DNA of 51,025 bases. Origin: Bradyrhizobium sp. AT1. Its GTDB lineage: Bacteria > Pseudomonadota > Alphaproteobacteria > Rhizobiales > Xanthobacteraceae. Below, one piece after another: positions 1,293 to 8,052 of this stretch. The stretch is from contig NZ_JXDL01000001.1 of NCBI RefSeq assembly GCF_001590795.1, forward strand, positions 456,262 to 507,286, in the 5' to 3' direction. Made by a program: the position numbers and the translations under genes. The notes under the pieces were generated by a model. The model was not told where the DNA came from, did not search any database, and saw nothing but the letters and a program-made list of their open reading frames with translations. Each line of letters starts with the position of its first letter. Position 1 is the first letter of the stretch.

Positions 1293-2396
1293 TCAGCCCG
1301 CTGCAGCGGTGCTGGTTTTGCCGGGGCTTGCCGGCACGCGACCGAACTTCAGAATGATCCGGGTTCCGGAATGCGCGGGATCGCGCTCGACCGAGGCGTC
1401 GAGCTTGGAGGCCATGGCCGCGACGATGCGCTGGCCCATGCCGGTGGAGCGCGGATCGGCCTTGACGTTGTCGCCGACGCCGTCGTCGGTGATGGTGAGC
1501 TGGAGATCCTCGCCCTGCGAGGTCAGCTCGACATGGATCGGGCCGGCGCCATCGGGATAGGCGTATTTCACCGCGTTCATCACCAGCTCGTTGACGATGA
1601 TGCCGACGGCGACCGCGCGGTCCGGATCGATCTCGACCGGCTCGGCCTTCAGCGTCAGGCGCGACATCCGGTTGCCTTCGGCGGAGCGGCGGAGATCCTC
1701 GAGCAGGGAGTCCAGATACTGGTTCAGGACCACGCTCTTCAGATCCTGCGAGGTGTAGAGGCGGCGGTGCACCTGTGCGACCGCGGCGACGCGGCCCATC
1801 GCATTGGTCAGTGCCGCCTTGACCTCGTCCTGCGCGGCGGAGCTGGCCTGAAGATGCAGCAGCGAAGCAATGATCTGGAGCGAGTTGCCGACGCGGTGGT
1901 TGACCTCGCGCAGCAGCATCTCGCGTTCGGCGGCAAGGGCCGCGTAGCGGTCGCGCGAGGCATGGATCTCGGCCTCGGCTTCCTCGCGCGCCTTCTGCAG
2001 TTCGGCCTGGCGCAGCGCGCCTTCGCACGCGACATGGAGCAGGGGGATGAAATCGCCGGTGACGTCCTTGACGAGATAATCGGAAGCGCCCGCCTTCAGC
2101 GCGGTGACCGCGATATTGGAATCCTGGGAGGCCGTGACGAACACCACGGGCGGCGCGCCCGGGATCGCCATGATCTGCTCCAGCGTGTCCAGGCCGTCGA
2201 GGCCGGGCATGTACTGGTCGAGCGCGACCACGTCGATGCTTCCCTGGGCACCCGCGCGGCGGATGTGCTCCAGGCCTTCCTCGCCGCTCGCGGCATGGAC
2301 GACCCTGTAGCCGCGCCGCGTCAGGCCGCGATCGACCAGGCGCGCGAGCGCACCGTCGTCATCGATGTAGAGTAGGGTGGGCGTGCGCTGGTTCAT
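1293..2396 (-). CDS. Response regulator receiver domain fused to HRXXN (HisKA_2) histidine kinase
   Basis: The product is a soluble 367-residue hybrid without membrane segments. Residues 1-120 are a receiver domain with the acidic pocket IDDD (11-14), phospho-acceptor D60 in ALDQYMPG and K110. Residues 130-160 form a charged helical linker. The dimerisation domain has LLREVNHRVGNSLQ with H167-R168-x-x-N171, the HRXXN signature of HisKA_2/HWE kinases. The ATPase domain follows, with IIVNELVMNAVKYAYPDG and a D-x-G-x-G type box. The gene overlaps the upstream response regulator by 4 bp and closes the operon. Kinases of this class phosphorylate PhyR in the alphaproteobacterial general stress response, so the protein may link the receiver input to PhyR. 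That link is inference. Confidence 0.9.
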   Translation of the reverse strand: MNQRTPTLLYIDDDGALARLVDRGLTRRGYRVVHAASGEEGLEHIRRAGAQGSIDVVALDQYMPGLDGLDTLEQIMAIPGAPPVVFVTASQDSNIAVTALKAGASDYLVKDVTGDFIPLLHVACEGALRQAELQKAREEAEAEIHASRDRYAALAAEREMLLREVNHRVGNSLQIIASLLHLQASSAAQDEVKAALTNAMGRVAAVAQVHRRLYTSQDLKSVVLNQYLDSLLEDLRRSAEGNRMSRLTLKAEPVEIDPDRAVAVGIIVNELVMNAVKYAYPDGAGPIHVELTSQGEDLQLTITDDGVGDNVKADPRSTGMGQRIVAAMASKLDASVERDPAHSGTRIILKFGRVPASPGKTSTAAAG

Positions 2397-2836
2397 GGGG
2401 CGGCGGGCGGGACCTGGATGACCGAGAAGAACAGGCCGAGCTGCCGGATGGCATTGGCGAAATTCTCGTAGTTGACGGGCTTGGTGATGTAGACGTTGCA
2501 GCCGAGCTCGTAGCAGCGCTTGATTTCCTGGGAATCGTCGGTGGTGGTCAGCACCACCACGGGCGAAGCCTTCAGATATTTGTTTTCCTTGATCTGCCGG
2601 AGGATGTCGATCCCGGTCATGTCGGGCAAATTGAGGTCGAGCAGGATCAAGAGCGCGTTGCCTTTCTGCACGAGCCCAGAGCCGTCGGCGCCGAACAGGT
2701 GCTGCATCGCGTCCGTGCCGTTCTTGAACGAGACGATCTCGTTGTTGACGCCCGAGCGGCGGATGTTGCGCTCGATCAGGCGGGCATGGCCCTCGTCGTC
2801 CTCGATCATGATGATGGTGACAGGCTGGGTCATCAA
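2393..2836 (-). CDS. Single-domain response regulator (Rcp1-like)
   Basis: This is a 147-residue stand-alone receiver: acidic pair in IMIEDDEGHARL, phosphorylation site D67 in LLDLNLPDM, conserved T in VVVLTTTDD and K119 in YITKPVNY. There is no DNA-binding output domain. The sequence resembles the Rcp1-type regulators that pair with phytochrome-like kinases. It overlaps both neighbours by 4 bp (stop and start share ATGA), so it is translationally coupled to the CHASE3 kinase upstream and the receiver-kinase downstream. The likely role is to accept phosphate from the CHASE3 kinase and act through protein contact, possibly as a relay or sink. The partner assignments rest on gene context. Confidence 0.9.
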   Translation of the reverse strand: MMTQPVTIIMIEDDEGHARLIERNIRRSGVNNEIVSFKNGTDAMQHLFGADGSGLVQKGNALLILLDLNLPDMTGIDILRQIKENKYLKASPVVVLTTTDDSQEIKRCYELGCNVYITKPVNYENFANAIRQLGLFFSVIQVPPAAP

Positions 2837-4356
2837 TCTCTGTTCCGGTTGCTTACGTTCCAGGCGATCGGCAGCGTGATCGTGAAGGTGCTGCCCGCAT
2901 TCAGTTCCGATGATACCGACATGGTGCCGCCAAGACGACGCACAAGTGCACGCACATGCGCAAGACCGATACCCTGGCCAGGCTTGTCCTGGGTTCCCGC
3001 GCGGCGGAACAGGTCGAAAATCCTCTGGTGATCCTTGGGGTCGATCCCGCGGCCGTTGTCGCTGATCTCGAAAATAGCGTAACCGAGCTTGGTGCGCCCG
3101 CGAATTCTGATCTCCCCGGGCACGCCGTTCTTCAGATACTTGATGGCGTTGTCGATCAGGTTGGAGAAGATCTGCTCGAGCGCGAGCCGGTCGCTCACGA
3201 CGTTGGGCAGGGCTTCAAGGTGGATTTCGGCCTGCGCCTCGGCCGCCTGGTGCGCCAGCGTCGACACGATGGCCTCGATCAGCTCGTTGGTGTCGATCTT
3301 CACGGGCTGGAATTCGCGCCGGCCCTCGCGGGTGAGGTTGAGGATGGCCGAGATCAGCCGGTCCATCTTGGCGATCGACGATTTGATGAAGCCGAGCGCT
3401 TCGGAAAAATCCTCCGAGAGCTGCTTGTCGGCGCCATCGAGCACGATTTCGCCCGGTCCGGCGGGGGCGAGCGGCGCCCCGTTCGCAGAAACCTGGGCGA
3501 GGCCGCCGATGCGGCGGAAGATGTCGCCACCGAGCTCTTCGAGCTCGCTGGTGAAGCCCATGATGTTGACGAGCGGCGAGCGCAAATCATGGCTGACGAT
3601 ATAGGCAAAGCGCTGGATCTCGTCGTTGGCCTCGCGCAGGTCCGCCGTGCGCTCGTCGACGACGGATTCCAGATTGACGTTGGCATCGCGCAGGCGCGCT
3701 TCCGCCTCGTCACGGGCGCGCGCCGAGCGCCGCACCAGCCAAGTCGAGATCAGGGCCAGCAGCACGACGAGGCCGGAGCCGATCCCGGTCATCGACGCCG
3801 CGAGCGTCTGGCTGCGGTCGGAGTTTTCCGTTCGGATCCGGAACAGCCGTTCCTCCTCCTGGATCATGCCGGTCGCGACCCTGGTGATGGCGGTCGTGGC
3901 GTCGGTGGAGACGACTTCGCGGATCAACGCCGCCGCCTTATCGGGCTGGCCTTGGCGGATGAACTCCATTTCCTGCGCGAACTGGCCGAGGCGCATCTCG
4001 ATCGCTGCACTCAGCTTTTCGATGTTTTCGCGTTGCGCGGGATTGTCGCCGCTTTGGCGTGTCAGCTTGTCCAGTGCCGGAATGACCCCCGCCACGGCCT
4101 TTTCGTGGTCGATTTTGAAGCTCTCTGCCTGGGTCAGCAGGAAACCACGGGCGGAGCTTTCCGCGCGCCGGATTTCCAGCAGGAGGCTGTTGATTTGGTT
4201 CTCCACCTCGATGGTGTGAACCACCCATTTGTTGTCCTCGCGGGCCTTGTTGACGAGGTAGACCGAGCCGGCGCTGATCACGGTCAGCACCAGAAGACCC
4301 GCCGAGATCAGCAGGATCTGCCAGAATGCCCGCCGTCGTTGGGCTTCAGCCGTCAC
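2833..4356 (-). CDS. Membrane sensor histidine kinase with CHASE3 domain
   Basis: The 507-residue protein has a transmembrane helix at about 13-33, a helical CHASE3 sensor region (about 37-185, with EIRRAESSARGFLLT), a second transmembrane helix at about 190-209, and a coiled-coil linker. The HisKA domain carries H256 in AYIVSHDLRSPL and the HATPase domain has NLIDNAIKYLKNG, ISDNGRGID and GQGIGLAHV boxes. It is the first gene of a three-gene operon, overlapping the next by 4 bp. An EcfG-type promoter match ends 68 bp upstream of the start. The start codon used is GTG. The HisKA domain is the classical type, unlike the HRXXN domain of the last gene. The ligand is unknown; CHASE3 senses signals outside the cytoplasmic membrane. 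Confidence 0.93.
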   Translation of the reverse strand: MTAEAQRRRAFWQILLISAGLLVLTVISAGSVYLVNKAREDNKWVVHTIEVENQINSLLLEIRRAESSARGFLLTQAESFKIDHEKAVAGVIPALDKLTRQSGDNPAQRENIEKLSAAIEMRLGQFAQEMEFIRQGQPDKAAALIREVVSTDATTAITRVATGMIQEEERLFRIRTENSDRSQTLAASMTGIGSGLVVLLALISTWLVRRSARARDEAEARLRDANVNLESVVDERTADLREANDEIQRFAYIVSHDLRSPLVNIMGFTSELEELGGDIFRRIGGLAQVSANGAPLAPAGPGEIVLDGADKQLSEDFSEALGFIKSSIAKMDRLISAILNLTREGRREFQPVKIDTNELIEAIVSTLAHQAAEAQAEIHLEALPNVVSDRLALEQIFSNLIDNAIKYLKNGVPGEIRIRGRTKLGYAIFEISDNGRGIDPKDHQRIFDLFRRAGTQDKPGQGIGLAHVRALVRRLGGTMSVSSELNAGSTFTITLPIAWNVSNRNRD

Positions 4357-4423
4357 GACGGTTCACCTGTTTACGTTCAGTGGATTTCAAAACGCCCCCT
4401 TGGAACTAGCCCCAACCGTCCAG

Positions 4424-4448
4424 AACGCGATTGAAGCCAAAGGGTTCC
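4424..4448 (-). promoter_or_regulatory. Candidate EcfG (general stress sigma factor) promoter of the two-component operon
   Basis: Read on the minus strand, GGAAC (4448-4444) is followed by 16 bases and CGTT (4427-4424). This is an exact match to the GGAAC-N16/17-CGTT consensus of EcfG promoters in Bradyrhizobium and relatives. It is in the right orientation 68 bp upstream of the CHASE3 kinase start, in a 107-bp gap after the accC stop. The match is seen directly; use by EcfG is inferred. Confidence 0.6.
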
Positions 4449-4463
4449 ACAAGGCGATGAATT

Positions 4464-5822
4464 TTATCGCGGGGCGGGTTCCGCCTTGCCGGCGAGGTAC
4501 TGCTCCAGCCAGTGGATGTGGTAATCGCCGTTGATGATGTCGTCTTCACGTACCAGCGCCCGGAACAGCGGCAGCGTGGTCTCGATGCCCTCCACAACCA
4601 TCTCGTCCAGCGCCCGGCGCAGCCGCATCAGGCATTCGGCGCGGGTCTTGCCGTGCACGATCAGCTTGCCGACCAGGGAATCGTAATAGGGCGGGATCAT
4701 GTAGCCCTGGTAGACGGCGGAATCGATGCGGACGCCGAGGCCGCCCGGCGGATGGTATTGCAGGATGCGACCGGGCGAGGGACGGAAGGTCTCGGGATTC
4801 TCGGCGTTGATGCGGCACTCGATCGCATGGCCGATGACCTGGATCTCTTCCTGCTTGGCCGGCAGGTCGCCGCCGGCGGCGATGCGGATCTGCTCCAGCA
4901 CGAGGTCGATGTCGGTGATGCTCTCGGTGACGGGATGCTCGACCTGGATGCGGGTGTTCATCTCGATGAAGTAGAACTCGCCGTCCTCGAACAGGAATTC
5001 GATGGTGCCGACGCCGAGATATTTCATCTCGCGCATGGCCTTCGCACAGGTCTCGCCGATCTTGGCCCGCGCGGCGGCGGAAAGGACGGGCGAGGGGCCT
5101 TCCTCCCAGACCTTCTGGTGGCGGCGTTGCAGCGAGCAGTCGCGCTCGCCGAGATGGATCGCGCCGCCGCGGCCGTCGCCGAGGATCTGGATCTCGATAT
5201 GGCGCGGCTTCTGGAGATATTTTTCGAGGTATACGGAAGCATCGCCGAAGGCTGATTTGGCCTCGTTGGCCGCCGTCGACAGCGCCACCTGGAGGTCGGC
5301 CTCGCCATGCGCGACCTTCATGCCGCGGCCACCGCCGCCGGCCGCCGCCTTCACCAGCACGGGAAAGCCGATTTTCCTGGCGATCCCCAATGCGTCGTCA
5401 TCGGGACCGACCGCACCATCGGAGCCGGGCACCACGGGGATGCCGAGCTTCTTGGCGGTCTTCTTCGCCTCGATCTTGTCGCCCATCAGGCGAATATGCT
5501 CGGCCTTGGGACCGATGAAATGCAGATTGTGCTCGGAGAGGATCTCCGCGAAGCGGGCATTCTCCGACAGAAATCCGTAGCCCGGATGCACGGCATCGGC
5601 ACCGGTGATCTCGCAGGCCGCGAGCAGCGCGGGGACGTTGAGATAGCTGTCCTTGGATGCCGGCGGTCCGATGCAGACGCTCTCGTCCGACAGGCGCACA
5701 TGCATGGCATCGGCGTCGGCGGTGGAGTGCACGGCGACGGTCGCGATGCCGAGCTCCTTGCAGGCCCTGAGGATGCGAAGGGCGATCTCGCCGCGATTGG
5801 CTATGAGGATCTTGTCGAACAT
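4464..5822 (-). CDS. accC: Acetyl-CoA carboxylase biotin carboxylase subunit
   Basis: AccC carboxylates the biotin carried by AccB, using ATP and bicarbonate, in the first step of fatty-acid synthesis. The start is the ATG at 5822, because the family always begins close to [16 protein letters not shown]; a longer frame upstream adds unrelated residues. Clear signatures are the glycine-rich loop [13 protein letters not shown], the ATP-grasp region [20 protein letters not shown] and HPVTE. The length of 452 residues is standard. It lies 80 bp downstream of accB on the same strand; the gap holds an inverted repeat. The aroQ-accB-accC order is typical of alphaproteobacteria. Confidence 0.97.
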
Positions 5823-7156: not shown

Positions 7157-7981
7157 TTAGCCTTCGATGATGTAGACGATCTCGCGGGTCTGCGGACGGA
7201 CGATCACGTACTGGCCGCGGACGAAGATGACTTCATAGCCACGCCACTGCGGATAGATCTCGACGATCCGGGGCGGCAGCGGGTGGAAGTGGACGGAAGC
7301 CGGGACCGCGGCGCCGACCGAGATGTTGAAGTTGACGTTCGTGGTCTCCTCGATCTTGGTCGACTTGATCGCGGTCGAGATTTCCGTCCGCTTCTCGGCC
7401 GGCGGGGCAGCGGCGGTGGCCGACGCGTTACCGGTCGTGGTCTGCGACGACTTGGTGTCGGTGGTGGCCGGACGGTTCTCGGCGTTGTTGCTCTTGGTGG
7501 CGCTGCCGGCCTTGTTGTCCTCGGCCTTCATGTCCTTGGCGCCGGACTTGGTGGAATCGGACTTGGTGGAGTCCGAGCTCATGCTCTTCGACTTGTCCAT
7601 CTGGCCTTGAGCATGCTCGCCCTTCGCGCCAGCCTTTTCGTCAGCCGCGTTCTTGTTCATCGCGCCGGAGCCGGACTTGTCCATGCCGGACTTGTCTGCC
7701 GCGCCCGACTTCTCCATCGCACCGGACGACTTCTCGTCCGCGGCTCCGCCGGGCTTCATCGCGCCGCCGGCCTGGCCGACAGTACCCTTGTCGTGGCTCA
7801 TGGAATCGCGGCCCATCGAGCCACCGCGCTCGGCGGCGCCGCCGGAAGGCTGCGAATGCTGCGTCTGCGCGCCACCGGCGCCGCCGCCGCTGTCGCGGCC
7901 CATGGTGCCCTGCGCGTTCGCCACACCGGTACCCGCGACCAGCGCGAGTGCGGCAACCGAGATCATAAAGCGGTTCAACAT
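7157..7981 (-). CDS. DUF1236 domain-containing secreted protein
   Basis: The 274-residue protein starts with a signal peptide (MLNRFMISVAALALVAGTG, cleavage after ANA). Residues 25-180 are low-complexity, rich in Gly, Ser, Lys, Asp, Met and Thr, with short repeats such as KSDSTKSDSTKSG, and are probably disordered. The C-terminal 70 residues are the DUF1236 domain, with VNFNISVGAAVPASVHFHPL, the final part including VFVRGQYVIVRPQTREIVYI. GAGGAG lies 9 bases before the ATG. An exact EcfG promoter match lies 47 bp upstream, suggesting induction by general stress. The molecular function of DUF1236 proteins is unknown; they are abundant in Bradyrhizobium. Confidence 0.88.
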   Translation of the reverse strand: MLNRFMISVAALALVAGTGVANAQGTMGRDSGGGAGGAQTQHSQPSGGAAERGGSMGRDSMSHDKGTVGQAGGAMKPGGAADEKSSGAMEKSGAADKSGMDKSGSGAMNKNAADEKAGAKGEHAQGQMDKSKSMSSDSTKSDSTKSGAKDMKAEDNKAGSATKSNNAENRPATTDTKSSQTTTGNASATAAAPPAEKRTEISTAIKSTKIEETTNVNFNISVGAAVPASVHFHPLPPRIVEIYPQWRGYEVIFVRGQYVIVRPQTREIVYIIEG

Positions 7982-8027: not shown

Positions 8028-8052
8028 AACGAAAGGAGATTTGAGTTGTTCC
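8028..8052 (-). promoter_or_regulatory. Candidate EcfG promoter of the DUF1236 gene
   Basis: On the minus strand GGAAC (8052-8048), 16 bases, then CGTT (8031-8028): an exact match to the EcfG consensus with the preferred spacing. It lies 47 bp upstream of the DUF1236 ATG, leaving room for a leader with a good GAGGAG ribosome binding site. This is the second such match in the window in front of a gene; the other precedes the two-component operon. Confidence 0.62.

Follow-up and report, generated by a model that had tools for sequence, protein, structure and literature searches.

A CHASE3 kinase, a free receiver and a receiver-HRXXN kinase encoded together in Bradyrhizobium: a candidate input module of the general stress response

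Three signal transduction genes lie together on the minus strand of a 51,025-nucleotide stretch of Bradyrhizobium sp. AT1 (contig NZ_JXDL01000001.1, positions 456,262 to 507,286; this whole stretch is called the window here), in a genome of 7.53 Mb. They encode a CHASE3 sensor histidine kinase, a free single-domain receiver and a protein that joins a receiver to a histidine kinase core of the HRXXN type. An exact GGAAC-N16-CGTT sequence precedes them. An initial annotation had described this arrangement and proposed that it might be both an input and a target of the general stress response, the pathway of PhyR, NepR and the sigma factor EcfG. The arrangement itself was confirmed when the open reading frames (ORFs), Pfam domains and motif were read again, as follows.

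4424..4448, minus strand: candidate EcfG-type promoter element GGAAC-N16-CGTT (exact sequence match; presumed EcfG binding)
2833..4356, minus strand: CHASE3 sensor histidine kinase (CHASE3-HisKA-HATPase_c), GTG start, likely first phosphodonor (ORF, Pfam, conserved residues)
2393..2836, minus strand: free single-domain receiver, Rcp1-type, likely phosphate carrier (ORF, Pfam Response_reg, similarity to 3heb, conserved residues)
1293..2396, minus strand: receiver-HisKA_2 (HRXXN)-HATPase kinase with a PhyK-like catalytic core, which probably donates phosphate to PhyR (ORF, Pfam, NCBIfam, conserved residues, tree)
5873-4464, minus strand: accC, upstream flank of the module (stop at 4464)
1244-555, minus strand: aat, downstream flank of the module

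The three overlapping genes are likely to form one operon. The overlaps had been put at 4 bp each, which is correct for the junction of the free receiver and receiver-HisKA_2 genes (ATGA). At the first junction its extent depends on the start codon of the receiver: 4 bp for TTG (2836), but a single base, in TGATG, for the codon that follows, ATG (2833). The motif (4448-4424) is separated by 67 nt from the GTG start codon of the CHASE3 kinase and by 15 nt from the accC stop upstream. All Pfam matches are above their cut-offs: CHASE3 (99.3 bits) and HisKA (35.5 bits) in the first protein, Response_reg in the two receivers (71.3 and 78.6 bits), and both HisKA_2 (83.6 bits, cut-off 22.3) and HWE_HK (27.1 bits, cut-off 22.8) in the HRXXN kinase.

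Residue conservation was followed in alignments of the window with 79 loci of named relatives (80 rows, or 79 where fewer could be compared). These are the 79 best loci among 474 relatives rather than a census, and some of them also occur in the other genome sets used below (e.g., L243/G207, L275/G070 and L295/G425, where L and G label loci and genomes), which means that the sets are not independent. Within these best 79, the three genes stand in the same order in every locus. The CHASE3 kinase has His256, Asn399, Asn403, Asp433, Gly435 and Gly437 in 79/79 rows and Gly460, Gly462 and Gly464 in 80/80, and all 80 rows likewise have Asp67, Thr97-99 and Lys119 in the free receiver and Asp60 in the fused receiver. 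The HRXXN motif reads HRVGN, with His167, Arg168 and Asn171 in 80/80 rows, and is accompanied by an NELVMNAVKYA segment and by Glu270 (79/79 rows), as belongs to the HWE/HisKA_2 class. This kinase does not have the degenerate ATPase domain of the PhyT/PhyP type: Asn274, Asp304, Gly306, Gly308, Gly319 and Gly321 are present in 79/79 rows. The free receiver resembles the Rcp1 type, its matches among solved structures being 3heb (E 1.5e-67), 5ic5 (E 2.2e-28) and 1i3c (E 2e-20). The closest of these, PDB 3heb, was deposited as a receiver (CheY); the literature searched held no paper that mentions both 3HEB and a response regulator.

The receiver-HisKA_2 gene is present in 145/146 genomes of the genus and 59/119 of the family, in 36 of the 199 genomes of the order sample and in 29 of the 398 of the phylum sample, all 29 belonging to the window's class. 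Sixteen of 18 phylum-sample loci examined have receiver and CHASE3-type kinase genes adjoining it (L238 and L240 do not). The first gene is not uniform. In 14 of the 79 named-relative loci, mostly from Methylobacterium and Methylorubrum, it matches in the kinase half only (one of these loci, L284, is cut by a contig end), and the sensor may therefore differ there.

Is the module also a target of EcfG? The motif match alone is no evidence, because its counts are at chance level. With spacings of 15-18 the window has 2 matches against 1.48 expected, and 43 of 100 shuffles reach at least 2. Across the genome, with spacings of 16-17, there are 118 matches against 163 for the reversed pattern. Conservation in relatives therefore has to decide. 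For this, 115 relative loci were taken, 61 from the genus (spread over the identity range) and 54 from other genera; L119 and L122 were left out because they are without the CHASE3 kinase and free-receiver genes. Loci of other genera were treated as syntenic when accC was in the stretch and the kinase was more than 60% identical (n = 27). The exact motif lies within 200 nt in 53/61 genus loci and 17/27 syntenic loci, against means of 0.12 (genus) and 0.08 (other genera) loci in shuffled upstream regions, and it occurs in 0/437 control chunks inside accC. When the window is added to the 61 genus loci and the distance is limited to 150 nt, 54 have the exact motif and eight have an exact GGAAC with one change in CGTT; the shuffled control covers the exact motif but not these 62 loci taken together. 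Among all 83 similarly shaped dyads of the window's gap the motif ranks first (70/88 loci), and the runner-up (39 loci) is this site moved by one position. The spacer, in contrast, varies, with 40 distinct sequences among the 44 exact N16 sites of the window and genus loci. A lack of conservation in orthologous operons had been named as a ground for refuting the initial proposal; in the genus and its near kin, the promoter element is conserved with the operon.

The wider picture is different. Among the loci of named relatives, the exact motif is found in 26/33 of the Bradyrhizobium-Rhodopseudomonas-Tardiphaga-Afipia type. The available part of PMC4814048 gives the EcfG promoter consensus as GAAC-N16,17-C/GGTT, and beyond that clade the corresponding relaxed motif (GAAC-N16/17-SGTT) is found in 3/46 loci, with 0.26 expected, plus one of 14 order loci examined (L342). 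Control by EcfG there would therefore be occasional at most. An upstream GGAAC-N16/17-CGTT of the kind that marks the EcfG regulon is, in short, conserved within the clade but not beyond it. Within the clade, the module is likely to be induced by EcfG from this element, judging by its conservation. The three-gene set is far wider than the promoter, however, and EcfG control is therefore no defining trait of the set.

One clue to the target of the third protein comes from its kinase core. The best NCBIfam model is PhyK (NF051872), with 121.6 bits over the kinase core only, whereas a LOV-kinase model gives 66 bits. The PhyK model matches 15/15 relatives, as receiver models do, and the second-best kinase core of the window's genome has 36 bits against 121. 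When the HisKA_2 model alone is scanned, that genome has nine matching places, the module kinase with 88 bits and the others with 22-30. A tree was built from 19 cores, comprising ten module kinases, the PhyK-type kinase of genome G436 and the eight other HisKA_2 matches of the window's genome. Although 9 of its 16 inner branches are weak, the ten module kinases and the G436 kinase join at 100/100, apart from the eight others. Within this group the window's kinase clusters with L264, L334 and L339 (92/87), of which L334 and L339 are linked to ecfG (see below). By sequence, then, the HRXXN core is PhyK-like.

Another clue is where the module sits. According to the accessible text of PMC4814048, ecfG and nepR most often form one operon that is divergent from phyR. 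The window's genome has one nepR, accompanied by a divergent phyR and a downstream ecfG, 3.8 Mb from the module and thus not linked to it. Elsewhere the two come together. Outside the family, 30 genomes of the order have the receiver-HisKA_2 gene. Its positions were compared with those of NepR, and 20 of these loci, including eight candidates, were taken. In these eight of the 30 genomes (L334 to L341; five genera, four families) the module has both phyR and ecfG within 8 kb. Six of them have NepR by Pfam within 8 kb (L338 and L339 are under the Pfam cut-off), where 0.13 genomes would be expected from genome size; the linkage and co-occurrence figures ignore shared ancestry, and four of the eight linked genomes are of one genus. 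In this genus (L338-L341) the three module genes come directly after ecfG, with stops that overlap possible starts along the run, a short NepR-like frame before ecfG and phyR divergent. The L339 products have PhyR, sigma-70, CHASE3, receiver and HisKA_2 domains, the first two being carried by the homologues of phyR and ecfG of the window's genome.

The other 12 order loci have no phyR except L347, where a PhyR-like gene (46%; L347:1984-2733) and an EcfG-like piece (L347:2-139) lie at least 5 kb from the module in G410. A Pfam NepR is on another contig of G410, and the L347 pair may represent a second stress locus. EcfG-like genes also occur in L349 and, as a weak match (26%), in L351. In the remaining 10 order loci, NepR is either on a different contig or no closer than 0.29 Mb. 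Two named relatives, one Methylobacterium and one Methylorubrum, carry an EcfG homologue (47-48%) roughly 3 kb downstream of the module (L297:10563-11087 and L307:10655-11179), and L288 has a weaker one (33%) in the flank.

Co-occurrence follows the same line. Counting NepR matches at E up to 1e-3, 34/36 order carriers of the receiver-HisKA_2 gene have NepR (two of them under the Pfam cut-off) compared with 81/163 non-carriers, and phyR and ecfG adjoin the module in the two carriers without a match, G331 and G395. The figures for the phylum sample are 28/29 carriers (G458 is the miss) and 64/369 non-carriers. Carriers therefore nearly always have the stress switch, while the switch is also present in many genomes that lack the module. 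The tie to the general stress response that had been proposed thus gains from the nepR, phyR and ecfG genes of the window's genome, from the linkage to phyR and ecfG elsewhere and from the PhyK-like core, although in the window's own genome the module stands apart.

What might the module do? It appears slightly more probable than its negation that the operon, transcribed by EcfG RNA polymerase from the conserved element, encodes a phosphorelay that sets PhyR phosphorylation. In this relay the CHASE3 kinase would sense an extracytoplasmic cue and phosphorylate the free receiver, perhaps along with the receiver of the third protein. The HRXXN histidine of that protein, gated by or charged from a receiver, would hand phosphate to PhyR. 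PhyR~P would then remove NepR from EcfG, and EcfG would transcribe the operon, closing the loop. The observed base of this relay is the gene order, the conserved phosphorylation and ATP-binding residues, the conservation of the promoter in one clade, the joining to ecfG and phyR elsewhere and the PhyK-like core. A broader form of the idea seems plausible, with the balance tipped a little against it. It holds that Alphaproteobacteria carry a general stress input module (CHASE3 kinase, Rcp1-type receiver and receiver-gated PhyK-type HRXXN protein) that would bring envelope signals to PhyR. The module would be the missing PhyR phosphodonor pathway of Bradyrhizobium and its kin, placed there under EcfG as a feedback loop, and another genus would have built it into the ecfG operon.

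The closest known system is that of Caulobacter, where, in the available text of PMC5964349, the HisKA kinase CC2874 charges MrrA, MrrA charges PhyK and LovK, and PhyK charges PhyR. The module shares with this relay a HisKA kinase, a free receiver, a PhyK-type HRXXN protein and, as proposed, PhyR as the target. It differs in that its three genes form one cluster, whereas those of Caulobacter do not, in that its free receiver is without the FATGUY motif and in that its HRXXN protein has an N-terminal receiver. Phosphotransfer has been demonstrated in Caulobacter, whereas the module is known from sequence. In Sphingomonas, the accessible part of PMC5898713 reports that the Pak kinases charge SdrG and that PhyT carries phosphate to PhyR. 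As far as that text goes, this system is alike in that a free receiver feeds an HRXXN protein that charges PhyR, as is proposed for the module. However, PhyT has a degenerate ATPase domain whereas the window's kinase keeps the ATP-binding residues, the Paks are HWE/HisKA_2 kinases whereas the module's first kinase is of the HisKA class, and the sdrG and pak genes are scattered. The window's cluster unites the same three kinds of part as these relays, which suggests the order CHASE3 kinase, free receiver, HRXXN protein, PhyR. By this analogy, the module is likely a packaged, operon-encoded form of the CC2874-MrrA-PhyK-PhyR relay. A more distant likeness is that to RsbK of Bacillus cereus, a receiver-bearing CHASE3 hybrid kinase that, in the available text of PMC4574943, acts on a general stress sigma factor. 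RsbK belongs to the unrelated sigma-B pathway of another phylum, and the resemblance is one of analogy only.

Several observations sit uneasily with a relay into PhyR. Most module loci are away from phyR, which is in the flanks (up to 6 kb) of 0/79 named-relative loci. Within the clade the exact motif is missing in 8/61 genus loci and 10/27 syntenic loci; it is found in 0/25 family loci with a kinase at or under 60% identity, and beyond the clade it is present in 2/46 loci (L303 and L304) and missing in 44/46. FATG is found in 0/80 free receivers, which are thus not of the FATGUY type of MrrA and SdrG. The 121.6 bits of the HRXXN core are far under the PhyK equivalog cut-off of 750, so that it is not a member of that family. 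The model passes this cut-off in 0/199 order genomes, which means that its rank tells little about function, and the one PhyK-type row in the tree (G436, 216 bits) is itself under it. The HRXXN gene stands without its two partners in L119 and L122 (family; gene near accC) and in L238 and L240 (order), which means that its product can be retained on its own. The 81/163 non-carriers with NepR argue that the module gene is dispensable for having the pathway. Finally, a PhyP-type protein of Rhodopseudomonas palustris, Rpal_4707, is already named in the accessible text of PMC5898713, and may or may not be the product of the module gene.

The same genes could also serve to end the response. An EcfG-induced HRXXN protein, with one receiver as a sink, might drain phosphate from PhyR or its donor in the manner of LovK-LovR. 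This kind of negative feedback fits the conserved stress-type promoter, and each module has two receivers as possible sinks. It also has a precedent, since the available part of PMC5964349 describes Caulobacter lovK and lovR as SigT-controlled and as a phosphate sink. The likeness extends to a stress sigma-controlled HRXXN protein (for the module, presumably so) encoded together with a free receiver. However, no HisKA kinase gene is named with lovK-lovR in that text, whereas the first gene of the module encodes a HisKA kinase with conserved catalytic boxes, which would be superfluous for a pure sink. The HRXXN core also scores higher with the PhyK model than with the LOV-kinase model. A draining role therefore seems rather unlikely, although the module's effect may have either sign: in the accessible text of PMC5964349, the SigT-controlled LovK-LovR drains the Caulobacter pathway.

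More doubtful still is that the module is a separate pathway, merely one of many EcfG targets in this clade, in which the third protein acts on another response regulator. Cph1 pairs with the receiver Rcp1, and the module resembles such pairs in its HisKA kinase and Rcp1-type receiver. It departs from them in having a CHASE3 sensor rather than a phytochrome and an added receiver-HRXXN kinase. The structures nearest to the free receiver, the general lack of the EcfG motif outside the clade and the distance of most loci from phyR are all consistent with such a pathway. It would not, however, account for linkage to phyR and ecfG in five genera, including overlap with ecfG, or for NepR in nearly every order carrier. 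Least credible, to the point of being very improbable, is that the GGAAC/CGTT match arose by chance and that the genes are an ordinary two-component cluster. The chance-level count in the window and the lack of a genome-wide excess over the reversed pattern would agree with this, but conservation across divergent spacers and first place among the 83 dyads would not.

If the relay into PhyR is correct, it would be a packaged equivalent of those known from Caulobacter and Sphingomonas, built with a receiver of another class. In Bradyrhizobium, the module is a concrete candidate for the kinase pathway that feeds PhyR. The EcfG regulon of B. japonicum was reportedly studied by Gourion in 2009. No named kinase feeding PhyR in Bradyrhizobium was met in the literature searched, most subscription papers being outside its reach, and the parts of the literature that were accessible held no description of this cluster. 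Searches for CHASE3 with HWE and a response regulator in Alphaproteobacteria found no papers, and CHASE3 with PhyR led to Bacillus only.

Two minor observations concern the surroundings of the promoter; Rfam and tRNA scans of the window gave no matches. In the gap between accC and the kinase gene (4357-4463), a partial inverted repeat, seen by eye (CCCTTTGG / CCAAGGGG), shares sequence with the motif; it is followed by TTTT and might be a weak accC terminator. A second exact GGAAC-N16-CGTT lies at 8028-8052 on the minus strand, 3.6 kb from the first, before a DUF1236 gene (7157-7981, minus strand). This motif is kept upstream of the homologue in 22 of the 25 loci of named relatives with a readable homologue start. 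The DUF1236 gene is therefore likely to be a second EcfG target, which would be useful as a positive control.

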